A stretch of DNA of 64,000 nt from Panopea generosa (taxonomy: Eukaryota > Mollusca > Bivalvia > Adapedonta > Hiatellidae): positions 52,543,250 to 52,607,249 of the forward strand of contig CM055895.1 of assembly GCA_029582155.1 (NCBI GenBank). Reading direction: 5' to 3'. The notes below the pieces were generated by a model. It ran no database searches and was not told where the DNA came from. It saw nothing but the letters and a program-made list of their open reading frames with translations. Made by a program: the position numbers and the translations under genes. Below are positions 2,312-62,938 of the stretch, one piece after another. Position 1 is the stretch's first letter. Each line of letters starts with the position of its first letter.

Positions 2312-4040
2312 AGTTACATGATTCAAAAGAATTAGAAATAATAACAACACTAAATGAGCTACGCAATTCCAAAGAAATAGAAATAATGAAACACTAAATA
2401 AGATACGTGATGCCAAAGAAATAGAAATAATGACTACACTAAATGAGCTTCGTGATTCCAAAGAATAAGAAAGAATGAAACACTAAATGAGCTACGTGGT
2501 TCTAAAGAATTAGAAATAATGAAACACTAAATGAGCTACGTGATTCCAAAGAATTAGAAATAATGACTACACTAAATGAGCTACGTGATTCCAAAGAATT
2601 AGAAATATCGAAACACTAAATGAGCAACGTGATTCCAAAGAATTAGAAATAATAACAACACTAAATGAGCTACGCAATTCCAAAGAATTAGAAAAAAATG
2701 AAACACTAAATGAGCTACGTAATTCCAAAGAATTAAAAATAATAATAACACCAACTGAGCTACGTGAGTTCAAAGAATTAAAAATATTGACAACACTAAA
2801 CGAGCTATGTGATTTCAAAAAATTAGAAATAATGACAACACTAAATGAGCTATGTGATTTTAAAGAATAAGAAATAAGGAAACACTAAATGAGCTACGTG
2901 ATACCAAAGAATTAGAAATAATGACTACACTAAATGAGCTACGTGATTCCAAAGAATTAGAAATAATGACTACACTAAATGAGCTTCGTGATTCCAAAGA
3001 ATAAGAAATAATGACTGCACTAAATGAGCTACGTGATTCCAAAGAATTAGAAATTATGACTGCACTAAATGAGCAACGTGATTCCAAAGAATTAGAAATA
3101 ATGACTACACTAAATGAGCTATGTGGTTCCAAAGAATAAGAAATAATGAACACTTAATGAGCTACGTGGTTCCAAAGAATCAGAAATAATGAAACATTAA
3201 TGAGCTACGTGATTCCAAAGAATTAGAAATAATGACTACACTAAATGAGCTACGTGATTCCAGAGAATTAGAAATATCGAAACACTAAATGAGTTACGTA
3301 ATTCCAAAGAATTAGAAATAAAACAACATTTAAATGAGCATTGTGATTCGAAAGAATTAGAAACAAGAACAACACTAAATTAGCTACGCAATTCCAAAGA
3401 ATTAGAAAAAATGAAACACAAAATGAGCTACGTGATTCCAAAGAATTAGAAATAATAATAACACCAAATGAGCTACGTGATTTCAAAGAATTAGAAATAA
3501 TGACTACACTAAATGAGCTACGTGATTCCAAAGAATTAAAAAAAAATGAAACACTAAACGAGCTATGTGATTTCAAAGAATTAGAAATAATGACAACACT
3601 AAATGAGCTATGTGATTTAAAAAAAAAAAAAAATGAAACACTGAATGAGCTACGTGATTCCAAAGAATTAGAAATAATAACTACACTAAATGAGCTACGT
3701 GATTCCAAGGAATTAAAAATAATAACAACACTAAATGAGCTACGTGATTACAAAGAATTAGAAATAATGAAACACTAAATGAGCTACGTGATTCCAAAGA
3801 ATTAGAAATAACAAAAAAAAACACTTAATGAGCTACGTGATTCCAAAGAATAAGAAATAATGACTGCACTAAATGAGCTACGCGATTAGAAATAAAGACT
3901 GCATTAAATGAGCTATGTGATTCCACAGAATTAGAAATAATGACAACACTAAATGAGCTATGTGATTCCAAAGAATTAGAAATAATGAAAATACTAAATG
4001 AGCTACGTGATTCCAAAGAATTAGAAATAATGAAAACATT
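2312..4040. repeat. 45-bp tandem array, about 38 copies
   Basis: The unit reads approximately aatgagctacgtgattccaa followed by agaattagaaataatgacta and cacta. Period is 45 bases with some 43-44 base units and substitutions. Because 45 is a multiple of three, both strands stay open over long stretches and give artefactual ORFs (a 15-residue NELRDSKELEIMTTL-type repeat on +, a SRSSFSVVIISNSLE-type repeat on -). The array stops about 170 bases before the acceptor of the first recognised channel exon. Confidence 0.95.
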
Positions 4041-4209
4041 GAAATGTGAAAGAAGGTATCAACCTATAACAGCAGGTAATATATATTAAGTTTCCTAATG
4101 CAAATATTCACATTTCGAAAAAGAGTGGGTATTAAAATGGTCGATATATCTCAAAATTATCAGTATATAACAATTTTATAATTCCAGTGCTTAATAATTT
4201 ATATTTCAG

Positions 4210-41000: not shown

Positions 41001-44000
41001 AATTGTTCGTGGGAGCATGCCACTGGACATCCCTAGCAAAGCTAGGATTGTGCCTCCTGTAAAATCAAACTTTGGCTACGGCCCTGCCTATATTTGAATG
41101 TTTTATATCACCTATATACGAATGATTGATTTCACTTGTTATGATTAACTAAAGAAACGACGTCGTCACATACCATTGTTACATTTGATATATCTGTATT
41201 GTAATCAGTGTTGTCTTGATGAATGTCTAACACTACTAACTATAGCGTTTATATTGTTTCTAGCAGTTCTAACTCTCAGTTATTCCATTCAGTTCTGTTC
41301 ACAAGACCTCATACATTGTTACCTTGATTTTAATATTTTAAATATTTTTTTTGTTTTTATTTGACCTTGAATCTAAGTATTTTATCTTTTTAACTATGAA
41401 AAATATCTGTAATTCGAAAGACTGCCTTTTTATCATTTAAACTACCGTTATTTGGTTTAAATGTTATATGTTTTGTTTATCGTGTTTGATCACTTGTATG
41501 TTGTACGTTTTGCTTACAGAGAGAGCGCGAAATAGACGCAAACTTCAAGTCGAGTAGCGCAAGTCTTCAGGTATAATGCCTACCAATCCCTACTGTTGAA
41601 TCATTGAGGATATTAACAACTAATTCACGTATTGCAATTCTGCTTCTTTATTCAGCTTCTATATCTAACCGTTCAACAAAGGGCTTTCATTGCTCGTCAG
41701 CCAAGAACGTTGATTTGTACTGCTTCTCGACTGTATGTTTTATAATCACGTTTTACGCATTTTAGATAATGAAACTATAACACCGCTTTACGTGTGCTAA
41801 GTTTAATATACTATGTAGGCAATATACGTATGTCATATGTGTAAACAAACATTTTTATTTTATTAACATGACATGTAATGCATAATATTTAACAAGTGTT
41901 CTGAGGCTTCGATTTAAAGTTATAAAAATGAACAATGGAATACTTTTACTATTACAAAAATCATTTTTCTTTTGTTGTTTGTTTTTGATGAGCAAAATAT
42001 AGTTTGTTAGTTTTGTGTTCATAGCAGTCACTGTGTATTAATTAAATATATGTTTTTAAAATTAATTTTCCTTCTTATCAATGTCTAAAGCAAATGTCTA
42101 AAACAGAGTATAGCTCTGTCTAATAATATGGAAGAAAAATCTACTTTAAATTTGACAAAAAATAACATTGTCTCCACTCTCTGCCCAATCAGTCTACTCA
42201 TGACCTTTTATCAAATCAATATTTAAAGACAAAGACGCATAAACATGTGGAGGTAGAAAGAAATACCCAAGAATTTCATATTCAACACATTCTCTAGTTT
42301 TAAAAATATGATGCAAAAATTTTTTTAAAAAAAAAATGATAAATTTTGTAGATTTTTATCTAACATATCGATAACAAGTGGAAATGAATATATGACCACG
42401 AATATTTGAAATATGATGCCTTTCAACCATATACAAGAGTTATGCCACTTTTACAAAAAAAAATGGAAACGAACTTACACACATATTGGGATATCCTAAT
42501 TTTATATTTGCACCAAGTGGATATATCATTTTATTTTTGAAAAAAAGTTTATGAAAATTGCCGTGTGACCTTTTAAGCATTTAACATAACAAGCTTTCTG
42601 CATGCACAATTTAGGTAAATATCATATCCGAACAAACATTAATAGCCATTTTGAGTCCCATTTTATCTCCACACATGTGTTGTCACGCTATATTATGAAG
42701 TAAGTGGTATGGATCACTCGTGTTTGTGCTAACCGTCAGAAGTTTCGCTCTGTCAGTTGAAGAGTTATTAATATTGTAATATACTCTCCCGAAAATTGAT
42801 TATAATATTGATAAATTACATCATATTTTGATATCAACAACATTTTAATTGTTATGACAACGACCTAAATCAAGGAATTATATAGAATGGGAAAGGCAAC
42901 TGATTGATAGTTTATGAACGCTCGTGTATTCACGCAGAATCTTGCAATATCTCGTTTCCAATTTGTGAAAAAGTAGGGAGATACTGTCACAATATAAATT
43001 CACGTTTCGTTCTTTAAAAGTTTACACAAATTTGTGAATACCGAATGTCATTTTTTTAGATATTTGTTTTTCAAATTATCTCCCTTTACATTGAAATGCT
43101 GTTGATTTGAGAAGTTTAATAACTTTCAACTGAATGTATAAAATGAAACAAAATTTAAGACATCTAGTGTTTGACACCAACCGGTTATTACAAATACGAT
43201 TCACAGTAAATGATGCCAAGTTTTATGAGGCACCGACAGACTCAAATACTAACGGCTTAATATTTTTGCCAAACTTTTGGCTTTCAGTATATATAACCAT
43301 TTATTAGTGTTCGAGAATGTCTAGGAAATAGAACAGTAGCAGGAACGTAGATGCACGGCGTGGGCGTGTTGTGTGTGTTGCACGTATTTTCGTATGTTAT
43401 AGAATATTGTCGTGTCAAAAAGCTTTATTAAAACAAATAAAACATTCATCAAATATTCTGGAAGCTGGCCTCGAGGTTATTAAACTTTTTTGTGCTCAAC
43501 TCAAATCCGTACCCAATCCCAATTTAAAGGGTTTATATAAGCACACAAATTAAAGCACAAATACTGAATTTGAAAGCATTAATGCTGATTTGAGAAAGAA
43601 AGCTAATAACAAGTCCATTCGTTTTTTAGTTGAGCATGGAACAAAGTTTTGTAACCTCAGACGCAGGAAATGTGCGTTAGGGTGTTCTTTCTACATGTGA
43701 GATAGGTGAAATGTTACTTATCTACATATGGAAAGGTGAAATGTTACTTATCTACATATGAAATAGGTGAGATGTTACTTATCTACATATGAAATAGGTC
43801 AGATGTTACTTATCTACATATGACATAGGTGAGATGTTACTTATCTACATTTGAAATAGGTGAGATGTTACTTATCTACATATGAAATAGGTGAGACGTT
43901 ACTTATCTACATTTGAAATAGGTGAGATGTTACTTATCTACATATGAAATAGGTTCGATGTTACTTATCTACATATGAAATAGGTTCGATGTTACTTATC

Positions 44001-47000
44001 TACATTTGAAATAGGTGAGATGTTACTTATCTACATATGAAATAGGTGAGACGTTACTTATCTACATATGACATAGGTGAGATGTTACTTATCTACATAT
44101 GAAATAGGTGAGATGTTACTTATCTACATATGAAATAGGTGAGATGTTACTTATCTACATATGAAATAGGTCAGATGTTACTTATCTACATATGAAATAG
44201 GTGAGATGTTACTTACCTACATATGAAATAGGTGAGCTGTTACTTATCTACATATAAAATAGGTGAGACGTTACTTATCTACATTTAAAATAGGTGAGAT
44301 GTTACTTATCTACATATGAAATAGGTGAGACGTTACTTATCTACATTTGAAATAGGTGAGATGTTACTTATCTACATATGAAATAGGTGAGATGTTACTT
44401 ATCTACATATGAAATAGGTCAGATGTTACTTATCTACATTTGAAATAGGTGAGATGTTACTTATCTACATATGAAATAGGTGAGATGTTACTTATCTACA
44501 TATGATATAGGTGAGATGTTACTTATCTACATATAAAATAGGTCCGATGTTACTTATCTACATATGAAATAGGTGAGACGTTACTTATCTACATTTGAAA
44601 TAGGTGAGATGTTACTTATCGACATATGAAATAGGTCCGATGTTACTTATCTACATATGAAATAGGTGAGATGTTACTTATCTACATATGAAATAGGTGA
44701 GACGTTACTTAACTACATATGAAATAGGTCAGACGTTACTTATCTACATTTGAAATAGGTGAGACGCTACTTATCTACATATGAAATAGGTGAGATGTTA
44801 CTTATCTACACATGAAATAGGTGAGATGTTACTTATCTACATATGAAATAGGTCAGATGTTACTTATCTACATTTGAAATAGGTGAGATGTTACTTATCT
44901 ACATATGAAATAGGTGAGATGTTACTTATCTACATGTGATAAAGGTGAGATGTTACTTATCTACATATGAAATAGGTGAGATGTTACTTACCTACATATG
45001 AAATAGGTGAGCTGTTACTTATCTACATATGAAATAGGTGAGACGTTACTTATCTACATTTGAAATAGGTGAGACGTTACTTATCTACATATGAAATAGG
45101 TGAGATGTTACTTATCTACATATGAAATAGGTGAGATGTTACTTAACTACATATGAAATAGGTCAGACGTTACTTATCTACATTTGAAATAGGTGAGATG
45201 CTACTTATCTACATATGAAATAGGTTCAATGTTACTTATCTACATATGAAATAGGTGAGATGTTACTTATCTACATATGAAATAGGTGAAATATTACTTA
45301 TCTACATATGAAATAGGTGAGACGTTACTTATCTACATTTGAAATAGGTGAAACGTTACTTATCTACATATGAAATAGGTGAGACGTTACTTATCTACAT
45401 ATGACATAGGTGAGATGTTACTGATATACATATGAAATAGGTGAGATGTAACTTATCTACATATGAAATAGGTGAGATGTTACTTATCTACATATGAAAT
45501 AGGTCAGATGTTACTTATCTACATATGAAATAGGTGAGATGTTACTTACCTACATATGAAATAGGTGAGCTGTTACTTATCTACATATGACATAGGTGAG
45601 ACGTTACTTATCTACATATGACATAGGTGAGACGTTACTTATCTACATATGAAATAGGTGAGATGTTACTTATCTACATATGAAATAGGTGAGATGTTAC
45701 TTATCTACATATGAAATAGGTCAGATGTTACTTACCTACATATGAAATAGGTGAGCTGTTACTTATCTACATATGAAATAGGTGAGACGTTACTTATCTA
45801 CATTTGAAATAGGTGAGATGTTACTTATCTACATATGAAATAGGTGAGACGTTACTTATCTACATTTGAAATAGGTGAGATGTTACTTATCTACATATGA
45901 AATAGTTGAGACGTTAGTTATCTACATTTGAAATAGGTGAGATGTTACTTATCTACATATGAAATAGGTCCGATGTTACTTATCTACATATGAAATAGGT
46001 GAGATGTTACTTATCTACATATGAAATAGGTGAGATGTTACTTAACTATATATGAAATAGGTCAGATGTTACTTATCTACATATGAAATAGGTGAGATGT
46101 TACTTACCTACATATGAAATAGGTGAGCTGTTACTTTTGCATGTGTTTGTGTCACACCTGACTGATATGATCGATGTAAGCACCAATGTTTGCTTATATG
46201 CAGACAGATTTTTTTCACAAATTTGTTGATGGCAAAGAAATTGCGCCAAAAATGTCTCCGAGACATAAAAGCTATATTATGATTTGACAGATGAATTCGT
46301 AAAATTGCTAGTGGCGCGATTTATTGTCATACAAAGGATAGTTATTGATAACAGTAAACAGTACTCCAGGCACCGTTGTAAATCAAGTGCAATTACTCCA
46401 GTTGGCATTAAACTCAACAACTGATTTGTCAGCAGTACTGCGGCGTGGATGCTGTGGTAACAGTGCATTGTTTTATTTATAAAAAAAAGTTAAATATTTT
46501 AAGTGTGTTACATTATTTGAAATGATTCACATATTTACTTTATCAATTTCTACTTTATGAAACTCCCTAATGTAATAATGAAATTATTTGTAAATATGAA
46601 AACGTATTCATATTCTGTTGGTAGTTTTCTTTTTGTATGTTTTATTTTTCAATTATACAACCCAATCAGTTTTTTAAATTTTGTCAAATATTACGGGTAC
46701 GTATAATTTGAGAAGATCTAATTAAAACAATATAAAATCATAATAAAAGTTAAAAAAGAATCAAAGGACTAATTATTTTCTGCTTTGACAAAATAGTGTC
46801 AAAGCTTTATGTCAGAATAAACATGTGATGAAAACCAGAACTGGTGATACCTCTATGCTAAAATTCACGATCATGTTCAACTTTTTGTTTGCGATGACAA
46901 AACATTCTGGGAAAAGAGAAAAAAAAACATATGAAATAAAAGAATAACTATTGTTTATTTCCGGTAAATCCAGAACTCAAACAATAGATGCAACATTGGA

Positions 47001-49887: not shown

Positions 49888-52733
49888 AAGTAGTAGTAGT
49901 ATTTTAAACTTTTTATTTTACAGTATCAAAAGGAGTCAAATCTTTCAGAAACTCAATTAATTTCTTAATGGACCCCGACGGTTTTATTTGTCTGCCCACA
50001 ACAAAATATATAAGTACGATAAATAGTCCACACACCACAGACGCAAAAGCTGTGTCTGTTTAAATGATGTTGCTATCTCGAAACTAAATCAAACGTAGAT
50101 ATTCTCTTTTATGTCCTTCAAGTATTAATAGTAGGATTTCTTTATAAATAATATGATTAAATGTATTTATTTCGATTACTTTAAAAGCTAAAACTCTTCT
50201 TTCAGACTTCATGTCTTATTGTGTCGATAACTTTTCAAATAACGTTGATTTACAAACAGACAAAAAAATTGTTCTTCCCTGCATTTTACCTTTCAAACAA
50301 GGATGGGATTGGTTTTATATTAACATGTTTTTATAACAAGGTGAATTTACCACAATATCCTTAATAAATATCCATACGCCTTCCTAATTTAATTAGTACT
50401 ATTGTAGCGTTTGGTTTATTTTATGCAACATATTTTTAAAAATTACAGATTACAATGACCACCATATATGTTATTGTTTGATTCGTTTCTACTAGCAAAT
50501 ATAAAATACATAATAAAATAATAAAATTCGAGGAATAAAAAGTAGTCCCTGTGGGTATGATCATTATGGCGGTAAACAACACTGCCAAATTTGAGCAGGA
50601 TTGTGCCTCTGGCATAAAGCCTAACTTAAAAACAACTTAGCTTTTGTTGATTTATAAACACAAATTAACTCATTCATTAAAAACCTATATCTAATATTAC
50701 GCATTATCGTGATCGACATTTTAGATTAGGTCAAAGTGTTTAATAAACAAAGTGTTTGTGATATATTACAATATATTTACGATGACAGATATTTCGCAAA
50801 TAAAAAAGATATTAACACAAAGTTATGTATTGTCCGTAAGGTTTGACCTGACACTCGTTAATCTTCGCCAATATGTTCGGGCGTTTAAACACCTTCTCCG
50901 TACAGCTTTTCGTGAGTGCCGATATGTTGCCGATTTAATAATGCATTGGCATCGGTTATCAACAGAAATATCAATATTTACGTTCGCACACCGAAAATTA
51001 ATTTACAAATGCACGCGGAATATTCAGGAGTGCCAGGTAAACTTTACAATTATATATAATAATGTCGGGATATTCTTGGTGCACTTGTGGTTGGCTTACA
51101 TTGCACGTGGTATAGGTAAGGTCATATGTCATGAACGGTCAACATATAACTGTTTTATTTAAGTGTGCTCCAGACACAATACGATGTTCTATAACGAGCA
51201 CACGAGCAAGACGCCTAATTGGCGGAAATCCATACTTCTCAGACTGCTGGTCGCATTTTCGTGCGGTAAACGGAAGTTGTGACGTTCTCGCTTTCACGTC
51301 TTTAAAATATAGGTGGATTTAATTTTATATTTATTCTTTTGACAGGAAACGTTGTTTTTTAAAAAACAACACTTTTTTCTCGTCAGTCTTAAGATTGGAA
51401 CACATGATGCTGTAATGGCTAGGATTTTAGTCTAGTGACTTCAGACTCCCTGTCATATAAGTTTGATTTGATAGATTTAACAATGCAAGTGGAGACATCT
51501 CCGTTTTACATCTTTAAATCTAACTCGACACTACATGGTATCGTTTACAATAAAAAATACTATATTTTCTAACACCACGAGCAGTTTTATTGCCTTAATG
51601 GCAACATGTTGCAACAACAAGACAGTGTTTAAAGTGACTGGCCTGTTAATCAGACGGTTTAATTTTGTGTTGTTGTTTTTTTCTTACAGCAATATTATAC
51701 TAACGATCAAATCGCACACATGCTTCTGTCTCCTTGGAGTATTTCTATTCTTATTTCACACGCAATTAACGAATCTAATAAGTAGTTATTTTAAGAAAAA
51801 AAAACGATATATCATCATCTGAGTTGATGCTTTAGTTGCGCTAAAATGGATTACCACAAAGGAACATACCGATATAGTGAGAATTTATAATTACATAGTC
51901 GCGATATTTGAACATAAATATAAGTAGACGAATCAAAATAAGTTACCGTTATTTTCTAAATTGGATGAAATCACAATTAAAAGATTGAGGAAAAGCTTAT
52001 ATAATTAGTTTGCTAGTTTTAAATCTGAACTGGTATTTTAAATTTAGAGTCCCTGTGTTTGGTGTCGATAATCTCATTGGAAGTAAAAAATGAATACAGT
52101 CAAACCTGTCTTAAGCGGCCACTTAAGGGAAATAGCAAAATATTACCTCTTAAGACAGGTGGCTGCTGTATACAGTTTAATAAAACTTACATAATAAAAA
52201 TGGTAAATAGACAATATGACTGTTTAAAACAAGTGGTTGCTTAATAGAGGTGACCGCTAACACAGGTCTTACTTTAAGTTAAGCCAATGTTAATCCTATT
52301 TACAGATAATAGATCTTCAATGCGCAGACGAAAAGATCGTGGACGAGGTCAAGGCCGGAAGATATCCCACAGTGCAACACAAATTGCTACAACGCTCGCC
52401 ATTCCACAGCTCGATGCCATACAAAGACAACAGAAACTTCTGGACGTCAGGTTACAACATCTGCAAGCTAGTAGTAAAGAAAACAACCGAATTATTGACG
52501 ACGTTGATTTCTTGCGTAGGGTGATGACTGAAAATCAGAAAGCCATGTTTAATATTATCCACGCATTGTCGAACATGCAGAGTGAAATAGTCAGTCTTGT
52601 AAAATGTCTATCTCCCGCGTCTCCTACCCCACCTCCCACCACGAATGCTCACAGTGTTACAAACTCGGTAGGAAAGTCGGGTACTGGAAAAAAGAGATTG
52701 AGTCAACAGGACGACGACGAAAGCAAGTTTTGA
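4210..52733 (+). CDS. TRPC-family cation channel gene, 3' part (14 exons in window)
   Basis: Six-transmembrane, Ca2+-permeable cation channel subunit of the plasma membrane; TRPC channels are known to assemble as tetramers gated downstream of phospholipase C. Fourteen exons join in phase: 4210-4377, 4931-5097, 7974-8068, 23798-23954, 26098-26222, 27065-27249, 28519-28637, 29662-29753, 36477-36640, 38169-38375, 41520-41570, 47259-47385, 48717-48911, 52306-52733 (2280 nt, about 759 aa plus stop). Diagnostic motifs in order are FVAHPNCQQ before S1, [11 protein letters not shown] at the S4-S5 linker, LFWSIFG in the pore, LINMLIAMM in S6, EWKFAR in the TRP helix, PFNMIPSPK, and QRLVKRY. The N-terminal ankyrin repeats and start codon lie outside the window. 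All boundaries are GT/AG; the donor at 47386 is weak. The exact TRPC subtype (photoreceptor TRP, TRPgamma-like or other) cannot be decided by eye. Confidence 0.93.
4378..4930 (+). other. Intron of the TRPC gene, nothing further seen
   Basis: 553 bases between canonical splice sites. AT-rich; no repeat family or ORF recognised. Confidence 0.7.
4931..5097 (+). CDS. TRPC exon: S1 and start of S1-S2 loop
   Basis: 167 nt, phase 0 start, two bases left over at the donor (gtaaat). It encodes [19 protein letters not shown] then [10 protein letters not shown], aligning with the S1 helix, and an extracellular stretch with two potential N-glycosylation sequons (NVS and NES). Extracellular glycosylation of the S1-S2 loop is known in TRPC3. 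Confidence 0.92.
5664..5935 (+). repeat. tRNA-related SINE candidate
   Basis: Within 5664-5742 there is a tRNA-like head: gagtagccaagg resembles an A box and gtgggttcgagtt a B box, spaced about 50 bases apart. A body follows to about 5935. The sequence lacks a foldable complete tRNA, so it is read as a SINE rather than a tRNA gene. Confidence 0.5.
5936..6840. other. AT-rich intronic sequence
   Basis: Intron of the channel gene. A short imperfect taa/ataata microsatellite lies at about 6605-6655. No gene or known element recognised. Confidence 0.5.
6842..7560 (-). pseudogene. Non-LTR retrotransposon (LINE) reverse transcriptase fragment
   Basis: On the minus strand the conceptual translation contains, in order, a [14 protein letters not shown] block, a [14 protein letters not shown] block, [18 protein letters not shown], and FLDLRKEFD, matching the linker and fingers/palm region of CR1/Jockey-like reverse transcriptases (the GxxxFRPIS..LSKIFE motif and the F.D..KAFD Asp motif). 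Several stops and an internal deletion break it, including loss of the SGFR segment. It is antisense to the channel gene inside one of its introns. The clade cannot be fixed by eye. Confidence 0.75.
7974..8068 (+). CDS. TRPC exon: S1-S2 loop end and start of S2
   Basis: 95 nt between ctgtttcag and g/gtgagt. It completes a Gln split across the junction, then encodes an acidic extracellular stretch ([12 protein letters not shown]) and [16 protein letters not shown], the first half of S2. It ends after the first base of a Gly codon. The last ~44 bases and the donor are the founder copy of the downstream 53-bp array. Reading past the donor gives a TAA at 8074-8076, so failure to splice truncates the protein in S2. 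Confidence 0.92.
8025..8955 (+). repeat. 53-bp tandem array made from the exon 3' end plus splice donor, about 17 copies
   Basis: The unit starts in coding sequence (aacacatgtacagatttgta, then tagtattttggatattag) and continues into the intron (gtgagtaagctattta). The first copy is the genuine exon end; 16 more follow in the intron with period about 53. Donor-like GTGAGT or GTAAGT is kept in copies 1, 2, 5, 6, 7 and 11, GTCAGT in copy 12. Copies 8-10 and 13-17 read GCGAG, and copies 3 and 4 lost it. Two copies have a small internal insertion duplicating gatatta. Confidence 0.93.
9090..9320 (+). repeat. Unnamed dispersed repeat (family F), copy
   Basis: It shares a block order with 21185-21345, 23255-23360, 47556-47690 and 47785-47945: a ttttatgatg(t/c)gac segment, a gagataagagc-like segment, then ttatcacttcttttgtatg. 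It is found on both strands elsewhere in the window. No coding capacity was seen. Confidence 0.5.
9321..10868. other. AT-rich intronic sequence, nothing recognised
   Basis: Within the 15.7-kb intron 8069-23797. No array, element or exon found. Confidence 0.5.
10870..11026. mobile_element. MITE with acagtcaaacctgt termini (family T), copy 1
   Basis: The left end reads acagtcaaacctgtgcaagc. The right end is the inverted gacaggcttgactgta. Two further copies with the same termini occur at 52095-52273 and 55023-55190, so this is a real family. About 157 bases, no coding capacity. Confidence 0.65.
11105..11420 (-). repeat. Unnamed dispersed repeat (family F), reverse copy
   Basis: In reverse complement it contains gagcaaggttgggtgc, the ctctccatggtg block and ctattgtcgcttcttttgta, the same order as the + copies near 21.2 kb and 47.6 kb. 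Confidence 0.5.
11421..14467. other. AT-rich intronic sequence
   Basis: No exon or transposon recognised. A small direct repeat of about 23 bases (ggcgtatgaatatttata) is present three times at 12532-12592. Confidence 0.5.
14468..15060 (-). mobile_element. Truncated Tc1/mariner-like element with inverted ends
   Basis: The left end (14468-14516) and the reverse complement of the right end (15012-15060) align over about 49 bases with few mismatches, sharing caatatcataa, aatgaaaacgt and ataaa. Between them the minus strand encodes a Tc1-type C-terminal transposase region with [20 protein letters not shown], preceded by an [11 protein letters not shown] block. Several stops and frame breaks are present. 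About 593 bases is too short for a whole Tc1 element (about 1.6 kb), so it is an internally deleted, decayed copy. Confidence 0.85.
14600..15005 (-). pseudogene. Tc1-like transposase, C-terminal fragment
   Basis: The readable blocks are a [18 protein letters not shown] segment, then [18 protein letters not shown] and KRRVRAL. The SPDLNPIE motif with its final catalytic acidic residue is characteristic of Tc1 DD34E transposases. The central DNAPxH region is degraded and stops interrupt the frame. Confidence 0.8.
15455..20075. repeat. 53-bp tandem array, about 87 copies
   Basis: The unit is ggtgtgatggagttgtatag, ttgtattcctcgacaatata, acgctgtactagg. It is nearly perfect from 15.5 to about 17.9 kb; divergence grows toward 20 kb (ctgaacttagg, attcattgaaaatataaagc variants). 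Because 53 is not a multiple of three, minus-strand ORFs of 60-100 codons cycle through all three frames with a 53-residue period and are artefacts. Satellite-scale block inside the S2 intron of the channel gene. Confidence 0.97.
20076..21184. other. AT-rich intronic sequence, nothing recognised
   Basis: No exon, array or transposase motif seen. Confidence 0.5.
21185..21344 (+). repeat. Unnamed dispersed repeat (family F), copy
   Basis: It contains ttttatgatgtgacgccggg, taagagcgaggttgagc and cgagctctccagtg, followed by ttcgtttgtatgtattg, the family F block order. Confidence 0.55.
21345..21490 (+). repeat. tRNA-derived SINE, family S2, copy 1
   Basis: A tRNA-like head contains a B-box-like gggtttgttcgatccc. 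It is followed by a conserved body, gagcaagacactttatccgc and tagtactggttctactcaga. The same body occurs on the minus strand at 58738-58880, which establishes a family. Confidence 0.65.
21491..22799. other. AT-rich intronic sequence, nothing recognised
   Basis: Short ORFs only, without recognisable domains. Confidence 0.45.
22800..23360. repeat. Long inverted repeat flanked by family F sequence
   Basis: 22861-22899 and 23215-23253 are reverse complements over 39 bases with about one mismatch (agtcttgatcatatgcgacg against cgtcgcatatgatcaagact at the tips). The inner flanks remain loosely similar. The spacer is 315 bases. The outer flanks are partial family F copies: ttacactgtctcgctttatg on the left, and ctattgtcacttcttctgta on the right. 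It may be a MITE or two oppositely oriented copies. Confidence 0.6.
23798..23954 (+). CDS. TRPC exon: S2 end and S3
   Basis: 157 nt between ttgcag and aa/gtaagt. It encodes [19 protein letters not shown], then [20 protein letters not shown]. The WxECK..W/Y..G motif after S2 and the N.MD start of S3 are typical of TRPC. Upstream open frame is intronic. Confidence 0.95.
24294..24852. repeat. 70-bp tandem array, 8 copies, alternating dimer
   Basis: Copies start at 24301, 24371, 24441, 24511, 24581, 24651, 24721 and 24791 (phase of accaccag). Units alternate tgaccaccag and ttactaccag for the first seven copies, so the true repeat is a 140-bp dimer. The shared core is gggctacaagcaagcatgcc. Confidence 0.95.
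24853..25354. other. AT-rich intronic sequence, nothing recognised
   Basis: No feature beyond a poly-T tract near 24886. Confidence 0.45.
25355..25625. repeat. Dispersed repeat, copy 2 of 2
   Basis: Matches 1455-1760 in the same orientation over about 260 bases with substitutions, ending with ggggagataattgg. The mariner coding fragment found beside copy 1 was not found here. Confidence 0.6.
25955..26024. repeat. (TA)n microsatellite, about 35 units
   Basis: Uninterrupted ta dinucleotides lying about 75 bases upstream of a channel-gene acceptor. Tyr/Ile-repeat ORFs across it are artefacts. Confidence 0.97.
26098..26222 (+). CDS. TRPC exon: S3-S4 extracellular segment
   Basis: 125 nt between cttacag and t/gtaagt. 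It encodes [20 protein letters not shown] and [20 protein letters not shown]. It corresponds to the S3 extension/S3-S4 loop and is longer than in Drosophila TRP as recalled. An NHT sequon is present. Skipping this exon would shift the frame (157-nt exon ends with two bases, the next needs one), so it should be constitutive. Confidence 0.88.
26620..27064. repeat. Degenerate ~45-bp tandem array running into a splice acceptor
   Basis: About nine to ten copies of catgttggactactttgcaa, aatatatttttaactattta, tgaga with substitutions and length changes. The last unit continues without a break into the acceptor: its tatttatgacacag replaces the usual tatttatgagacatg, so the AG of the next exon sits in repeat-derived sequence. 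Confidence 0.85.
27065..27249 (+). CDS. TRPC exon: S4, S4-S5 linker, start of S5
   Basis: 185 nt, acceptor acacag, donor ttg/gtaagt. It encodes [32 protein letters not shown] and [19 protein letters not shown]. The [12 protein letters not shown]...F block is the most strongly conserved part of the TRPC membrane domain. Ends in phase 0. Confidence 0.97.
27600..28345. repeat. 75-bp tandem array, four clear copies plus older diverged copies
   Basis: The copies at about 28045-28345 have atgctctttt/atgcactttt landmarks at 28073, 28148, 28223 and 28298, an exact 75-base period. Related but more diverged units (ttcacataccatcatgcgtt, aataaagtacacaaat) extend back to about 27600. As 75 is a multiple of three, two frames stay open with a 25-residue repeat; no coding role is inferred. 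Confidence 0.88.
28519..28637 (+). CDS. TRPC exon: S5 end and pore turret
   Basis: 119 nt, acceptor actttag, donor ggg/gtaatg. It encodes [20 protein letters not shown], then [34 protein letters not shown] is a classic TRPC S5/turret signature. Confidence 0.96.
28638..29661 (+). other. Intron of the TRPC gene
   Basis: 1.0 kb, AT-rich. A 23-base direct repeat (tagacaccactatttctgga type) occurs three times at about 29112-29180. Nothing else recognised. Confidence 0.6.
29662..29753 (+). CDS. TRPC exon: pore helix and selectivity region
   Basis: 92 nt, acceptor attatag, donor gag/gtatgt. It encodes [20 protein letters not shown] followed by [17 protein letters not shown] is the TRPC pore-helix/filter motif. 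Confidence 0.97.
29754..30750 (+). other. Intronic sequence with a short degenerate direct repeat
   Basis: At 29990-30215 a roughly 75-base unit with atcatgcggt(a/t)tgcagt and cgcttgacttt-like blocks is repeated about three times. The rest is AT-rich without recognised content. Confidence 0.5.
30751..31219. mobile_element. Possible hAT-like MITE (cagggtggc ends)
   Basis: 30751-30759 cagggtggc and 31211-31219 gccaccctg are perfect inverted ends, with weaker similarity for a few bases more (gaac/aaac). CAGGG-type termini are usual for hAT elements. No clear 8-bp target duplication and no coding capacity, so this is tentative. Confidence 0.3.
31220..32270. other. AT-rich intronic sequence, nothing recognised
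   Basis: No exon or element seen before the Harbinger insertion. Confidence 0.45.
32400..33410 (+). pseudogene. Harbinger transposase (HARBI1-like DDE nuclease) remnant
   Basis: In order: a [14 protein letters not shown] region, an [32 protein letters not shown] helix-turn-helix, [15 protein letters not shown] (first catalytic Asp context, AIDGTHIPI in the family), then [20 protein letters not shown], and [17 protein letters not shown] with the last acidic residue. A frameshift occurs near 32690. An in-frame TGA lies at 33024-33026, where the family usually has Trp before the VHDARVF block. Close to full family length (about 350 residues) but not translatable as one protein. Confidence 0.9.
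33600..34140 (-). pseudogene. Harbinger Myb/SANT-like DNA-binding protein remnant
   Basis: On the minus strand from about 34135 the translation gives a W..EE block, [31 protein letters not shown], an in-frame stop, then [20 protein letters not shown] and [14 protein letters not shown]. This is the trihelix/Myb_DNA-bind_4 type domain with its spaced Trp residues. Further frame breaks follow; the C-terminal part is rich in Lys/Glu/Arg. In active Harbinger elements this partner protein is known to help the nuclease bind DNA and enter the nucleus. Confidence 0.8.
34540..36476 (+). other. Intronic sequence, nothing recognised
   Basis: AT-rich. Short ORFs (for example around 34789-35332) show no domain and are not supported. 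Confidence 0.5.
36477..36640 (+). CDS. TRPC exon: outer pore loop and S6
   Basis: 164 nt, acceptor aaacag, donor cag/gtagga. It encodes [20 protein letters not shown], then [20 protein letters not shown] and [22 protein letters not shown] is the S6 signature of TRP channels. Phase 0 at the end. Confidence 0.97.
36648..36775. repeat. 24-bp tandem array just after a splice donor, about 5 copies
   Basis: The unit is cagaaagtctagtatacacg plus tgac, starting seven bases inside the intron. Units vary in length in the first two copies. It is the third array in this gene that touches a splice site. Confidence 0.85.
36776..38168 (+). other. Intronic sequence
   Basis: AT-rich; a (ta)n run at about 37591-37612 and an imperfect CA-rich tract at about 37955-38010. 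An ORF spanning 37926-38537 covers the next exon; its first part is intron. Confidence 0.6.
38169..38375 (+). CDS. TRPC exon: TRP helix and post-TRP region
   Basis: 207 nt (69 codons), phase 0 at both ends, donor aag/gtaaag. It encodes [20 protein letters not shown] followed by [23 protein letters not shown] is the TRP box core. A basic stretch ([19 protein letters not shown]) follows. The acceptor gataag/ggt has a short pyrimidine-rich tract upstream. Confidence 0.96.
38376..40190 (+). other. Intronic sequence with degenerate local repeats
   Basis: About 38555-39010 holds diverged copies of cttaactgactcggcatta and cagtttccattcatgtcaaa-type units. The rest is AT-rich with no recognised gene. 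Confidence 0.5.
40195..41135. repeat. 24-bp tandem array interrupted by a MITE
   Basis: The unit is about gatatcacctatattcgaat plus gttt. Roughly 18 diverged copies occur at 40195-40635 and about two more at 41087-41135, split by the insertion at 40636-41086. Confidence 0.88.
40636..41086. mobile_element. MITE with cagggccgtagcca terminal inverted repeats
   Basis: 451 bases. The left end cagggccgtagcca and the right end tggctacggccctg are perfect 14-base inverted repeats; gcctcctgta lies inside each end. The sequence cctat flanks both sides (40631-40635 and 41087-41091) and could be a 5-bp target duplication. The CAGGG start recalls hAT, but a 5-bp duplication is unusual for that group, so the superfamily is left open. 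Non-coding. Confidence 0.85.
41520..41570 (+). CDS. TRPC exon: short C-terminal exon
   Basis: 51 nt (17 codons), phase 0 on both sides, acceptor cttacag, donor cag/gtataa. It encodes [17 protein letters not shown]. Because it is phase-neutral it could be skipped without a frameshift, so a cassette role is possible. Support is from splice sites and phase only. Confidence 0.7.
41571..43690 (+). other. Intronic sequence, nothing recognised
   Basis: AT-rich, with patches (for example 42180-42900) that read like old interspersed repeat but match nothing else in the window. Confidence 0.45.
43691..46136. repeat. 31-bp tandem array, about 79 copies
   Basis: The unit is gaaataggtgagatgttact plus tatctacatat. 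Variants (gagacg, cagatg, ttcgatg, ccgatg, catttg, gacata) recur in groups, suggesting block duplications. Almost every unit contains ttatct (GATA-factor site AGATAA on the other strand), catatg (an E-box), and taggtgag, which resembles a splice donor. It lies in the intron between two C-terminal channel exons. Confidence 0.97.
46137..47258 (+). other. Intronic sequence, nothing recognised
   Basis: AT-rich; no element identified. Confidence 0.5.
47259..47385 (+). CDS. TRPC exon: conserved C-terminal KRLVKRY-like segment
   Basis: The acceptor is ggttattacag. It encodes [20 protein letters not shown], then [20 protein letters not shown], matching the (K/Q)RLVKRY segment of TRPC C-termini. The 3' boundary is inferred: c/gttgta at 47386 is the last GT before the in-frame stop (47412-47414) that fits the phase-1 start of the next exon, but it is a weak donor. 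A better donor (gtaaga at 47278) has the right phase but would remove the conserved block. Unspliced reading adds about nine residues and stops. Confidence 0.8.
47556..47945 (+). repeat. Unnamed dispersed repeat (family F), two adjacent copies
   Basis: 47556-47690 and 47785-47945 align to each other: ttcacactgtctc/ttacattgtccc, gcgatgacaggggcat, gcgaggttgggtgctcc, tttggctactgat, then attggtcc and cttcttctctatgtattg. The second ends in ttgttataatcatg. Confidence 0.65.
48240..48520 (-). repeat. Unnamed dispersed repeat (family F), reverse copy
   Basis: The reverse complement contains gaagagcgaggttggagtgt and a gacaatag-containing stretch in the family order. Confidence 0.45.
48717..48911 (+). 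CDS. TRPC exon: acidic, proline-rich C-terminal linker
   Basis: 195 nt between cttgtttcag and g/gtatgt. It encodes [20 protein letters not shown], then [16 protein letters not shown] and a Gln/Asn/His-rich stretch ending RRMYNS. It starts needing one base and ends with one base of a codon, joining exactly with 52306. If the donor is not used, the frame runs on to a stop at 48947-48949 ([12 protein letters not shown]), a possible alternative terminus. Confidence 0.82.
49090..49095 (+). terminator. Possible polyadenylation signal for an alternative 3' end
   Basis: AATAAA about 140 bases after the read-through stop at 48947-48949. It would serve a short isoform ending in intron sequence. In AT-rich DNA this hexamer is common, so support is weak. 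Confidence 0.25.
49215..49905. repeat. Trinucleotide microsatellite (agt/gta with gca blocks)
   Basis: Long tracts of gta/agt interrupted by gca, gaa and gtt. Homopolymeric Val, Ala or Thr ORFs on both strands are artefacts. It lies in the last intron, or in the 3' UTR region of the putative short isoform. Confidence 0.97.
49906..52094 (+). other. Last-intron sequence, nothing recognised
   Basis: ORFs at 50752-51162 and 51535-51822 have no recognisable domain, and composition is like the surrounding intron. Confidence 0.5.
52095..52273. mobile_element. MITE family T, copy 2
   Basis: The left end reads tacagtcaaacctgtcttaa followed by gcggccac. The right end is the degenerate complement (ggtgaccgctaacacaggtc). 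It ends only about 32 bases before the last channel exon, so its right part overlaps where the branch point should be. Confidence 0.75.
52306..52733 (+). CDS. TRPC terminal exon: basic segment and coiled coil
   Basis: 428 nt from the tttacag acceptor to TGA. It begins with a basic cluster ([14 protein letters not shown]), then a long predicted helix with heptad character ([19 protein letters not shown], then [38 protein letters not shown]), a Pro/Thr/Ser tail and an acidic end DDDESKF. A C-terminal coiled coil supports tetramer assembly in TRPC channels. The last residues S-K-F fit a loose class I PDZ ligand, which would suit an INAD-like scaffold (inference). Phase matches the 48717-48911 exon. 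Confidence 0.82.
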
Positions 52734-55190: not shown

Positions 55191-55616
55191 TGTATTCTCA
55201 TACATACTGATTCACTATTGGATTTAGTTTGCATGTCTTAAAAACAATGCACGTTACGAGTCAACAAAATATTTAGGTTTTATTATGTATTTATTATTAA
55301 TACACAGTATATACATTATATAAAACAATACTTACATCTAACAAATAACCATGCCATTCTATAAAGAATTATAAGAGAATACAAAATAGTTTGGGAATTG
55401 ATCAATCAATGCTATGATATCTTTCCACTTGAATACTCTGCTTGTACTGTTAACGCTGTTTCTTGTTTGAACTAAATCAAGCGTCGACATCAAGTGATAG
55501 AAAACACGTAAATGTGTAGCACGTGGGTGATATGTTTCAAATATCAAGCAAGAAATTTAAAACATTGCTCTTTTTCTTCAAAGTGTATATTACAATAATA
55601 AGAAAATATACAACTA
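55191..55616. other. Intergenic sequence, nothing recognised
   Basis: AT-rich; no element recognised. Confidence 0.4.
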
Positions 55617-56212
55617 ACCAACAGGACCTAAATATAAAACTAACCAACAGGACCTAAACATAAAACTAACCAACAGGACCTAAATATAAAACTAACCAAC
55701 AGGACCTAAATATAAAACTAACCAACAGAACCTAAATATAAAATTAACCAAAGGACCTAAATATAAAACAAACCAACAAGACCTAAATATAAAACTAACC
55801 AACAGGACCTAAATATAAAACTAACCAACAGGACCTAAATATAAAACTAACCAACAGGACCTAAATATAAAACTAACCAACAGGACCTAAATATACAACT
55901 AACCAACAGGACCTAAACATAAAACTAACCAACAGGACCTAAATATAAAACTAACCAACAGAGAATAAATATAAAATTTAACAAACAGGACCCAAATATA
56001 AAACTATCCAACAGGACCTAAATATAAAACTAACCAACAGAGCATGAATATAAAATTTAACAAACAGGACCCAAATATAAAACTAACCAACAGGATCTAA
56101 ATATAAAACTAACTTACAGGATCTAAATATAAAACTAACCAACAGGACCTAAACATTAAACTAACCAACAGGACTTAAATATAAACTAAGAAACAGGACC
56201 TAAATATAAAAC
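55617..56212. repeat. 26-bp tandem array, about 23 copies
   Basis: The unit is ataaaactaaccaacaggac plus ctaaat, very regular at the left and with variants (gagaataaat, gagcatgaat, aacaaacagg) to the right, some repeated as a block. Confidence 0.95.
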
Positions 56213-56804
56213 TCATGTTCAAACTCTGAAATTTTGTAATTTGTATTAAAGCTAATTTACAGGAAATCAACAACATCAAAAACAATCAATTTCAATGTAA
56301 CATTATCAGAAAATAAAAATAAAACATTTTAAACTAAATATTTAGCTATTAAAAAGGATTTAAAAATCGGCAATTCTGAGTTTGTGTCGTGTTCTAGACT
56401 CAAACGTTTGATGAATTTAAGCGCGGGAGACGTAGCAAAGGACACCACTACCAATGCATCATAAAACATTCAGAATTAGTTGAATTAGGTTTGTAAATAA
56501 TTTTGATTGAAAACAGCTGCACCAATAAGTTATCCACTGAATTACTTATACTCATTGTATTTTGATTTATTTTTAATTGGATTAAAACATCATTAAATCT
56601 GGTCAGTGTATTATCATTGTGGAACATGCTCGTGACAAAGGAGTTGAAATAAAACACATTTAGTTAAAAAGTTTGCTAGCATGAAAGTCATTTGTTTGAG
56701 AAATCTGATCTGAGTTCCTACATGTGAACTAAAAATAAGAGTAACATGAAACTGTTATGAACATGAAATGGTATTCATCCCTGCAAAATAAACAGATAAC
56801 TTCA

Positions 56805-59341: not shown

Positions 59342-62300
59342 ATGGGCTCGGTATCTTCACACCTGTTTAGTCGCAGTACAAAGAGTGTCAAAATCGTCGA
59401 TGAAAGAAAACCAAAAGATGTCGTTCAATCAATGCCACAGGATGAAACTAAAGCAGTAAATGGTAAAACTGACGGTTCCGAATTAAGGGCAGATGAACCT
59501 GATGTGAAAGGCGACAGTCCAACACCGCATGTCTTAGTGAGTATCATGAAAGATAAGACTATTATTATAAGCGAGGGGAAAACTGCAGCAACACAAACAC
59601 CTGATTTTGAAAAAGAAATTGAAGAAAGTGCAGATTCGAGATTAGATTATCTGCCGCGATTAAATAGTCTTGAAGAAGAAATAAAAAGAAGTGACACTAG
59701 CGAACCGCCTTATTCAACACGGATTTATGAATATGGTGATAGAGTAAATTTCAAAAATAGCCGAAATTCGAAATATGAAGACTTGCAGACACCTACTTTA
59801 GAGGATGAATTGAAGTACGAATGTGAAGACAATGTAGATACTAAAGAACATGTTAAATTAGAGCCAAAATCAAAAAGTGTTGCTTTCGTAAACATAGCAG
59901 TTGGAACAGACGAAATAGTTGATGATACATCTCCAACAATAGATAGGAAAGATAAAAGATACGAAACAGAAGATGTTATTACAACGTTTGAAGATAAAGC
60001 AGTTGGGACTGTAAACGATAAATCTGTGAATACGGAAATTGAACCAAGTTACGAATCGGAAAACGGTATTACAACCTATGAAGATAAAGCAGTTGAAACT
60101 GTAAATGACAAATCTGTGAATACCGAAATCATATCGAGTTGTCAATACAAATCAGGGAGAGGCAGTGCAACGTTTGAAGATAAATCAGTTGGAACTATTA
60201 ATGATAAATCTGCGAATACCGAAATTGTATCGAGTTTACAATACGAATCAGGGAGAGGTAGTGCAACGTTTGAAGATAAAGCAGTTGGAACCATAAATGA
60301 TAAATCTGTGAATACTGAAAGTGTATCGAGTTACCAATACGAATCAGGGAGAGGCAGTGCAACGTTTGAAGATAAAGCAGTTGGAACCATTAATGATAAA
60401 TCTATGAATACCGAAAGTGTATCGAGTTACCAATACGAATCAGGGAGAGGCAGTGCAACGTTTGAAGATAAAGCAGTTGGAACCATAAATGATAAATCTG
60501 TGAATACCGAAATTGTATCGAGTTTACAATACGAATCAGGGAGAGGCAGTGCAACGTTTGAAGATAAAGCAGTTGGAACTATTAATGATAAATCTGTGAA
60601 TACCGAAATTGTATCGAGTTTACAATACGAATCAGGGAGAGGTAGTGCAACGTTTGAAGATAAAGCAGTTGGAACCATAAATGATAAATCTGTGAATACT
60701 GAAAGTGTATCGAGTTACCAATACGAATCAGGGAGAGGCAGTGCAACGTTTGAAGATAAAGCAGTTGGAACCATAAATGATAAATCTATGAATACCGAAA
60801 GTGTATCGAGTTACCAATACGAATCAGGGAGAGGCAGTGCAACGTTTGAAGATAAAGCAGTTGGAACCATAAATGATAAATCTGTGCATACCGAAATTGT
60901 ATCGAGTTTACAATACGAATCAGGGAGAGGTAGTGCAACGTTTGAAGATAAAGCAGTTGGAACCATCAATGATAAATCTGTGAATACCGAAATTGTATCG
61001 AGTTTACAATGCGAATCAGGGAGAGGCAGTGCAACGTTTGAAGATAAAGCAGTTGGAACTATTAATGATAAATCTGTGAATAACGAAATTGTATCGAGTT
61101 ACCAATACGAATCAGGGAGAGGCAGTGCAACGTTTGAAGATAAAGCAGTTGGAACTGTAAATGATAAATCTGTGAATACCGAAATCATATCGAGTTACCA
61201 ATACGAATCAGGGAGAGGTCATGGAACTTATGAAGATAAAGCTTTTGTAAATTATGTTACTGTGAATAAAGATGAATCTGCAATGAACGACAGTGATGAA
61301 AAGAAGACTATTGCATTTTTTGAAAATAAAGCAGTTGGTACTCAAGAAACTGCAAATGAGAAAAGTATAAAAGAAAGCAGTGAGAAAATAAAAAATGTTA
61401 ATTCTGATTTTGGAGATAAAGCTGTTGGAACTGAATGTGTTCAAAATGGGAAAATTGTGGATAAATTTAATGAAAGGAATATGACACCATGTACCGATGA
61501 TACTTTTGATGAAGCATATCCACTTAAAAAAACTTACTATTATTTAAAACGTGAACAAGAAACAAACACGTTTTCTTTGGGAGACAAAGAAGTTGGAACG
61601 CAAACTCCTGTGGATAAAGCAGTTGGAACTGAAGAAAATGTGGATGCAACAGCTAAAGTTAGTCGAAATGTTATGAATATTTATCATAACGACCATAACA
61701 TAGAAACTAGTAGTGAGAAAGACCAACAAAAGACGTCAAATGAAGAGTTGACAATAAATCAAAAACAATTTACAGGTACTTTAAAAGATAAAGCAATTGG
61801 AACTGAAGAATTTGTCATTGAGACGACTGAAAAAAATATTAAAGAAAATAAAAATAGTACGAATAAAAGTGCCAGTAGTTCATTCGATTTTAAGAATGAT
61901 CAAACAGAGACCGAAAAAGTCAATACTAAAAGCGTGAAACACAAACAAGAAACAGTTATTGTTTCTGGTGAAGAAAAGGCTAAAGGGACTGATGAAATAC
62001 TGAAAAACGGTAAAGGGGTAGAGATTGGAGATAGTGATTCAAACACGGATGAGGAGGAGAACAAATCATCGAAATGGTTTGATAATATTGAACCAATTAG
62101 ACCATTCGGAGAAGTTTCTTTGGAAAGATACGGCAAATACAAAGTAAGATTAGACAGTGAGAATGAAAATTGTATTATATCTGCAGCAACATTCTTAGAC
62201 ACTGGTGATATGGTTGCTATAGATAGAAGTAATCAAAAAATAAAATTTGTTGATTCTCAATTTAGATATATTTCATCGGAAAAGTTACCTGCGAAACCAT

Positions 62301-62938
62301 GGGCAGTGTGTGTCAGAGGTATTGACGTATACGTGACTATGGGCAATACTCAAATACAACATCTGTTTATTAAGGACATGACGTTTGAACTTGAGCGTGT
62401 TATTGACATCAAGGGAAGATGTTTGGGGATATGTTTGTTTGAAGAACATTTAGCTGTAGGTCTTCAAGTCGGCGAAGTGTGTTTAATTGATACTATGGGT
62501 GAAGTGCGTGGTACAATACAATTGCCACAAGTAGACGGCGGCAAACCTTGCAATCCGTGGCACCTTTGTGAAACTCTAGAACACAATCTACTTGTGACTG
62601 ATTCCGATGCACAGATGATATTTTGTCTCAACAAAACTGGTGATATTGTCTTTACGTTTAAGGGTCTAAGCTCACCACGTAGTACAGTAATCGACTCTGG
62701 GGGCAATATAGTGATAGTGGGGCGGGATAAAGAAACAGGAGTCGTGGTGACGATGTTGCCCAGAGACATGGAACTGCATAACATGCTTCACATCGAGGAC
62801 AAACCAGAGACGCGGTGTAGGGCATTATTGACGTGGGAACAACTGGAGTTTGTGCCGTACTGTGTCAGCTACAGACGAGACAATACCGTGGTGCTGGGAG
62901 GTTTGCAGGAGATACTTAAAATAATGAAAATGGTGTGA
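59342..62938 (+). CDS. Myristoylation-motif protein with DKAVGT repeats and a TRIM/NHL-like propeller
   Basis: Single-exon ORF of 1198 residues; an in-frame stop sits two codons before the ATG. The N-terminus MGSVSSHLF fits the N-myristoylation pattern (Gly2, Ser6), suggesting membrane attachment. Residues about 1-214 are charged and low in complexity, with ATQTPD near 83. Residues 215-244 are a 30-residue unit, and 245-628 are twelve 32-residue repeats (TFEDKAVGTINDKSVNTE, then SSxQYESGRGSA). Degenerate DKAVGT motifs continue to about 880. Residues about 930-1198 form six propeller-like blades (LDTGDMVAIDRSNQKIKFVD; PWAVCV; CLGICL; NPWHLCE; LLVTDSDAQMIFCLNKTGD; TVVLGGLQEILKIM), resembling the C-terminal NHL-like domain of mollusc TRIM proteins. 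RING, B-box and coiled coil are absent. The function is unknown; the repeats look disordered and acidic. Confidence 0.93.
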   Translation: MGSVSSHLFSRSTKSVKIVDERKPKDVVQSMPQDETKAVNGKTDGSELRADEPDVKGDSPTPHVLVSIMKDKTIIISEGKTAATQTPDFEKEIEESADSRLDYLPRLNSLEEEIKRSDTSEPPYSTRIYEYGDRVNFKNSRNSKYEDLQTPTLEDELKYECEDNVDTKEHVKLEPKSKSVAFVNIAVGTDEIVDDTSPTIDRKDKRYETEDVITTFEDKAVGTVNDKSVNTEIEPSYESENGITTYEDKAVETVNDKSVNTEIISSCQYKSGRGSATFEDKSVGTINDKSANTEIVSSLQYESGRGSATFEDKAVGTINDKSVNTESVSSYQYESGRGSATFEDKAVGTINDKSMNTESVSSYQYESGRGSATFEDKAVGTINDKSVNTEIVSSLQYESGRGSATFEDKAVGTINDKSVNTEIVSSLQYESGRGSATFEDKAVGTINDKSVNTESVSSYQYESGRGSATFEDKAVGTINDKSMNTESVSSYQYESGRGSATFEDKAVGTINDKSVHTEIVSSLQYESGRGSATFEDKAVGTINDKSVNTEIVSSLQCESGRGSATFEDKAVGTINDKSVNNEIVSSYQYESGRGSATFEDKAVGTVNDKSVNTEIISSYQYESGRGHGTYEDKAFVNYVTVNKDESAMNDSDEKKTIAFFENKAVGTQETANEKSIKESSEKIKNVNSDFGDKAVGTECVQNGKIVDKFNERNMTPCTDDTFDEAYPLKKTYYYLKREQETNTFSLGDKEVGTQTPVDKAVGTEENVDATAKVSRNVMNIYHNDHNIETSSEKDQQKTSNEELTINQKQFTGTLKDKAIGTEEFVIETTEKNIKENKNSTNKSASSSFDFKNDQTETEKVNTKSVKHKQETVIVSGEEKAKGTDEILKNGKGVEIGDSDSNTDEEENKSSKWFDNIEPIRPFGEVSLERYGKYKVRLDSENENCIISAATFLDTGDMVAIDRSNQKIKFVDSQFRYISSEKLPAKPWAVCVRGIDVYVTMGNTQIQHLFIKDMTFELERVIDIKGRCLGICLFEEHLAVGLQVGEVCLIDTMGEVRGTIQLPQVDGGKPCNPWHLCETLEHNLLVTDSDAQMIFCLNKTGDIVFTFKGLSSPRSTVIDSGGNIVIVGRDKETGVVVTMLPRDMELHNMLHIEDKPETRCRALLTWEQLEFVPYCVSYRRDNTVVLGGLQEILKIMKMV
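60074..61225 (+). repeat. 96-bp coding tandem repeat, 12 units
   Basis: Twelve units of exactly 96 bases with very few differences. Unit types by residue signature: A (NTEIVSSLQY), B (NTESVSSYQY) and C (MNTESVSSYQY). Their order from unit 2 is A B C A A B C A, so a four-unit (384-bp) block is duplicated. Each unit carries two DKxVxT motifs (DKAVGT and DKSVNT), implying an older internal doubling. Confidence 0.96.

Follow-up and report, generated by a model that had tools for sequence, protein, structure and literature searches.

The TRIM-NHL proteins TRIM2, TRIM3, TRIM71, Brat and Thin are the closest described systems to the gene considered here. Members of the TRIM family are defined by a RING and a B-box, and the NHL propellers of TRIM2, TRIM71 and Brat bind protein or RNA. 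In a 64,000-nucleotide stretch of the genome of the bivalve Panopea generosa (assembly GCA_029582155.1, contig CM055895.1, positions 52,543,250 to 52,607,249 of the forward strand; hereafter the window), we analysed a single open reading frame (ORF) whose product ends in a propeller that is like those of the TRIM-NHL proteins by profile, but which differs from them in having a predicted lipid anchor and a predicted-disordered arm of about 900 residues, and in lacking a RING and a B-box. By our comparisons the window protein belongs to a small group, as yet without a name, of NHL propellers with a predicted lipid anchor. Its four relatives there, from this genome (L010, L011, L012 and L050; L-numbers are our labels for loci), resemble it in combining an acylation-type N-terminus with a propeller and no RING or B-box (E up to 0.1), and differ in that their linkers, of 44-307 residues, are of other sequence and lack the DKAVGT repeat of the window arm. 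The TRIM-like genes L015, L040, L027 and L042 likewise have long open frames with a homologous propeller, but they have RING or B-box matches (weaker in L027 and L042), lack a Met-Gly (MG) start and lie elsewhere in the propeller tree.

The multivalent partners of the dimeric dynein light chain LC8 (DYNLL) provide another point of comparison. To our knowledge, neither ASCIZ nor GKAP has a membrane anchor and a propeller. Both resemble the window protein in carrying short motifs in series in a disordered region, whereas the window array lacks the conserved glutamine.

The propeller gene and its MG-start relatives

The coordinates of the principal features are collected in Table 1. As the earlier note had claimed, the ORF is intact over 1198 codons and bounded by an upstream in-frame stop, and its coordinates are exact. 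One codon separates that stop from the ATG, whose context shows A at -3 with G at +4; AATAAA signals start 73, 316 and 329 bases past the ORF stop codon. At a G+C content of about 35%, a chance frame of this length would not be expected. Neither a RING nor a B-box appeared when the complete ORF was scanned with Pfam at E up to 1, in agreement with the same note.

Table 1. Features of the ORF, with positions counted from the first letter of the window.
Feature	Position	Strand	Basis or remark
Whole ORF, 1198 aa, with stop	59342..62938	+	In-frame TAA at 59336
Residues 1-17, MGSVSSHLFSRSTKSVK, predicted N-myristoylation signal and nearby basic residues	59342..59392	+	PROSITE-like pattern fits; MG start common to the propeller group
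Residues 1-214, acidic N-terminal segment, predicted disordered	59342..59983	+	No other match in own genome, E up to 1
TQT, residues 84-86 (KTAATQTP), LC8-type anchor with non-consensus flanks	59591..59599	+	Motif from PMC3078936
Tandem array of a 96-bp unit coding for 32 aa, for example SATFEDKAVGTINDKSVNTEIVSSLQYESGRG	60072..61242	+	TRF; dN/dS 0.39 among 11 full units
Residues 662-884, lone [DEN]K.[VIK]GT copies scattered in non-repeated linker	61325..61993	+	Motif search
TQT, residues 753-755 (KEVGTQTP), LC8-type anchor overlapping a DKEVGT copy	61598..61606	+	Motif search
Residues 919-1198, NHL/TRIM-type beta-propeller, probably six blades	62096..62935	+	Family profiles

Residues 871-1198 of the window protein, used alone, gave weak matches to the designed propeller Pizza (8.6e-6) and to PknD (1.7e-4). 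A five-row profile of the window and its four relatives matched the solved NHL domains of TRIM2 (2.9e-19), TRIM71 (4.1e-15) and Brat (3.7e-12), and profiles of 31 and of 5 propellers alike matched the NHL structures of TRIM2, TRIM3, TRIM71, Brat and Thin, with designed propellers outranking the natural structures in these searches. When the 31-row profile was compared with itself, one internal repeat stood out with confidence, offset by 81 residues where the alignment begins (probability 91%), along with weak ones at about 126 and 166 (16% or less). These offsets are consistent with blades of about 42 residues, about six in number. The TRIM-type six-blade domain proposed in the earlier note is accordingly kept as an NHL/TRIM propeller by family profiles, and may have six blades. 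The window propeller also has an insertion near its C-terminal end that is absent in the four relatives.

In its own genome (G000; 1.47 Gb, 39 contigs), the window propeller finds at least 121 further matches with E no higher than 0.001, and L003 as query returned at least 130, itself included, at 1e-6. The best matches to the window propeller are L002 (3.4e-21) and L003 (1.5e-19), both with MG starts, followed by L004 (3.1e-16), which has four CxxC motifs and is B-box-like, and L005 (4.3e-16), again with an MG start. In each of the pairs L003/L010, L002/L012, L005/L011 and L013/L050, both labels stand for one locus. Across the 49 distinct frames compared (48 and the window), MG stands at the first in-frame Met in seven: the window, L010, L011, L012, L050, L058 and L047. 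A PS00008-like myristoylation pattern fits all of these except L011 and L058.

We built a tree from the propellers alone, with 44 rows; L001 and L034 are window fragments and were replaced by the window, and five frames with propellers under 215 residues (L016, L017, L044, L047 and L056) were left out, so that L047, its propeller being too short, is unplaced although it has an MG start that fits the pattern. The MG label derives from the N-terminus, which is outside the tree data, and was given to five rows only, with L058 scored as other. The window, L010, L011, L012 and L050 fall on one side of one branch (95/90), and the label changes once on the tree, a count that none of 500 shuffles brought as low. 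The grouping recurs when four long rows are removed (40 rows, 95/86) and when the window and L059 are removed (42 rows, 97/87). L058 sits in a neighbouring set of four with L041, L007 and L054.

The acylation-type start noted earlier (MGSVSS) is therefore present and common to the four relatives grouped by propeller, which begin MGGASS, MGGCFQ with six cysteines, MGNAAA with arginines, and MGCKGS. At greater length, these N-termini read MGGASSVKKK; MGGCFQKLRACCCCCC; MGNAAAAS then RRRRRRKK; and MGCKGSK then lysines. Each relative thus joins Gly2 to a basic or cysteine-rich stretch (lysines in L010 and L050, arginines in L012 and a six-cysteine run in L011), while the corresponding second signal in the window consists of scattered basic residues; such second signals resemble those of dual-signal membrane proteins. 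In all five group members the ATG is preceded by a stop codon within 7 codons, and Pfam at E up to 0.1 found no RING or B-box in the four relatives, L014 or L058. Of the 44 rows, 28 have at least two CxxC motifs ahead of the propeller. In the four such rows that were scanned, the matches pass the cut-off for a RING in L015 and for a B-box in L040, but stay below it for a B-box in L027 and L042.

Based on these sequence comparisons, the anchor looks like a group trait. Linkers in the group range from 44 to 918 residues and are wholly different in sequence, suggesting that anchor and propeller were kept and the linker was free to vary, except for one recurring short motif in the window arm. The earlier view of an unusual three-part combination survives for the arm, which is private to this gene, but not for anchor and propeller, which occur together in four relatives of the same genome with other arms. 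We found no report of anchored NHL propellers, or of LC8 motifs in TRIM-NHL proteins, in the open-access literature searched, which was available in part. On contig 14, about 3 kb separates L010 from L012. The L012 linker, which follows an arginine-rich run after the MG start, has a tandem repeat of its own, xFYxDxxG.

The repeat arm and its LC8-type motifs

The arm contains 13 exact DKAVGT copies, and 18 of the looser form.K[AES][VIK]GT between residues 218 and 883. TRF reports 12.2 copies of the 96-bp unit with 93% matches, amounting to about 390 residues, of which residues 275-626 form 11 full units. The DKAVGT repeats that the earlier note had put at about 660 residues are real, and their motif copies spread over about 700, but the tandem array covers only about 390. 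The dN/dS value between the full units comes from a simple count and is weak evidence because the units, being recent, hardly differ from one another. Stronger evidence comes from beyond the array, where [DE]K.[VI]GT occurs 4 times (residues 692, 748, 758 and 816) against 0.006 expected from composition shuffles of residues 1-214 and 636-908, with none of 20000 shuffles reaching 4.

Neither flank of the repeats has a counterpart in the genome: residues 641-905, like residues 1-214, have no other match there at E up to 1. The repeat unit has 25 genome matches, 9 of them in the window gene and 16 elsewhere that are weak (best 9e-6); the four of these 16 that were examined are all low-complexity arrays. 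By these searches the arm is private to the window gene, with no paralog in the genome. By charge-hydropathy index, residues 1-918 are classed as disordered (residues 215-634 barely so, at -0.035) and residues 919-1198 as folded.

The LC8 recognition motif is given in PMC3078936 as [D/S]K-x-[T/V/I]-Q-[T/V]-[D/E], with DKSTQTD as natural consensus peptide (Ac-DKSTQTD binds LC8 with a Kd of 5.6 uM) and with a few partners that lack the glutamine and use the anchors TMT, TSP and IGV. The LC8Pred paper (PMC6607443) describes a clear preference for glutamine at position 0 (Q0) and nonbinding of deviating anchors, and PMC12797016 describes the anchors VAT and CQT in SAO-1 and two ASCIZ sites joined by a three-residue linker. 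The full motif has no match in the window protein, but DKSVNTE and DKAVGTE fit it except at Q0; with position 0 left free, 12 sites match [DSE]K.[TVI].[TV][DE] and 27 match [DSEN][KR].[TVI].[TV]. (a dot stands for any residue). Outside the array, two looser patterns of LC8 type occur 3 times against 0.14 expected (8 of 20000 shuffles) and 5 times against 1.0 (71 of 20000). [TVI]Q[TV] occurs twice, both times as TQT with non-consensus flanks (Table 1). On this evidence the window protein may bind LC8. As a trait of the MG group the LC8 motif was rejected, since all four relatives lack it.

LC8 motifs and LC8 genes elsewhere in the genome

A genome search with D-x-K-x-T-Q-T-[E/Q] gave 43 matches, compared with 15 for the backward control. 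Of the 43, 26 fall in 13 loci between 34.6 and 62.1 Mb of contig C16 (L027, L033, L037, L065-L072, L097 and L098), with motifs such as DSKLTQTE. In all 13 the motif stands directly ahead of a propeller, mostly with a spacing of 11 residues, and each of these TRIM-like paralogs has one to three K.TQT motifs, mostly two or three motifs of LC8 type. These paralogs are more distant from the window protein than the MG group is. Eight of the other 17 matches were examined and revealed no propeller gene with an LC8 motif: the frames at L061-L064 (20-107 residues) are too short for a propeller, a judgement by length only, and four matches at 2.1-2.7 Mb of C16 lie in 21-residue frames with no propeller.

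In a set of 28 N-terminal parts, freed of duplicates and without that of the window protein, [TVI]Q[TV] was not enriched (14 against 10.8 expected), whereas TQT (8 against 2.1) and K.TQT (6 against 0.19) were in excess; the K.TQT excess stems only from L027, L037 and L042, of which L027 and L037 are closely related. For LC8 itself the genome has 17 matches, all over the cut-off, with full-length copies numbering 12 at 42.37-42.66 Mb of contig C2 and one on C6. The 12 full-length copies L081-L092 do not differ from one another in residues 61-80; several of these residues are changed in L093, also full length, and one in the partial L094, and L095 and L096 are divergent partial matches. Coupling of propellers by LC8 is plausible in this animal. 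Within C2:42369897-42660019 (L082-L094), the 12 full-length LC8/DYNLL frames are intronless in the matched part and are accompanied by fragments; eleven are nearly identical and L093 is more changed. The same cluster holds a propeller-only frame, L007 (C2:42513365-42514075), with a sequence SGIQMD that is near the GIQVD class of LC8 motifs.

Proposed function and alternative explanations

We lean towards the reading that the gene encodes a lipid-anchored adaptor with a disordered, motif-rich arm and a second ligand on its NHL propeller. In such a protein the initiator Met would be removed and Gly2 myristoylated, and the myristate and nearby basic residues would hold the protein at the membrane. 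The acidic arm would serve as a flexible tether of about 900 residues, the repeated [DE]K[AS]V[GN]T could capture a partner multivalently, as persistence of the motif suggests, and the propeller would bind a second ligand, protein or RNA. With no RING or B-box, the protein would not be expected to act as a ubiquitin ligase itself; at the membrane it might gather cargo into clusters or sequester it, or it might be a competitor of its many TRIM-like paralogs. In a genome that holds well over a hundred TRIM-like propellers, a predicted membrane anchor replacing the ligase head would represent a testable functional split, with the same propeller at a different cell location.

Several observations count against the adaptor reading. 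L011 breaks the myristoylation pattern at position 6, and L058 (MGPKFSK), in the neighbouring set, breaks it at position 3. The root of the tree was not inferred, so that calling the group one clade assumes a root outside it. The window row stands on a long branch (1.98), with identities of 22-27% to its four relatives; the row most nearly identical to it (28%) is L024, of B-box type, and L050, although in the group, ranks low against the window propeller (3.5e-12). At 13.2 bits, the window protein by itself does not reach the 20-bit cut-off for Pfam NHL, and AlphaFold run on residues 899-1198 with no alignment gave an uninformative model (pLDDT 33.4). Within the array, several columns outside the motif equal the motif columns in invariance, and neutral growth in the recent past may account for the array.

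That last point can be extended to the arm as a whole: an ordinary anchored propeller gene may have had its linker lengthened by a coding 96-bp minisatellite, leaving the arm as a mere spacer. The lack of a paralog for the arm, the wide range of linker lengths in the group and the near-identity of the units, which look recent, all favour such growth. We consider it rather unlikely in view of the reading frame maintained through all units, the dN/dS between them and the motif copies outside the array, although these could alternatively be old decayed units. A different origin, that of a mis-modelled or decayed TRIM gene whose upstream RING and B-box exons are spliced in or were recently lost, would fit the many rows with CxxC motifs and the RING and B-box matches among them. 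This we regard as very improbable, given that four group relatives share the short MG form and that the ORF is free of both domains, a result that concerns the ORF, as upstream exons were not searched for. The interval from the 59336 stop to the ATG also contains no AG and so no in-frame acceptor, although one might lie inside the ORF.

The remaining alternative is that the arm is a multivalent LC8 scaffold, on which LC8 dimers would pair two chains and so dimerise the anchored propellers, perhaps tying them to dynein. It draws on the two TQT sites and as many as 27 degenerate sites of DKxVxT type, on the anchors without glutamine in PMC3078936 (TMT, TSP, IGV) and PMC12797016 (VAT in SAO-1), on the motif ahead of the propeller in 13 of 13 C16 loci, and on the presence and multiplication of LC8 genes. 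Set against these are the absence of any full motif match in the window protein, the preference for Q0 and the nonbinding of deviating anchors in PMC6607443, and the spacing of the paired window motifs, which start only 8 residues apart, tighter than the ASCIZ sites with their three-residue linker. Residues 61-80 of LC8 are unchanged in L081-L092 and changed in L093 and L094, so that a matching groove variant is conceivable. Because the four MG relatives are motif-free and the window array lacks Q0, we keep the scaffold as a rival and judge it unlikely. If LC8-type motifs, canonical in the C16 paralogs and degenerate in the window, do act, some propellers are perhaps LC8-dimerised scaffolds. 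A broader scenario, to which we give little credence, is that in this bivalve a TRIM-like family gave rise to lipid-anchored NHL propellers, that the window arm is a many-site, glutamine-free LC8-type zipper, and that the parallel gain of canonical LC8 arrays in the C16 paralogs, with LC8 gene multiplication, produced a propeller-LC8 network; the open-access literature searched, in the parts available, contains no account of one.

The window also holds other tandem arrays, at 15459-20074 (53 bp x 87), 43683-46136 (31 bp x 79), 2315-4046 (45 bp x 39), 8029-8949 (53 bp x 17) and 55604-56213 (26 bp x 23.5). At 52278-52730 there is a 151-codon open frame whose product is rich in glutamine and charged residues.

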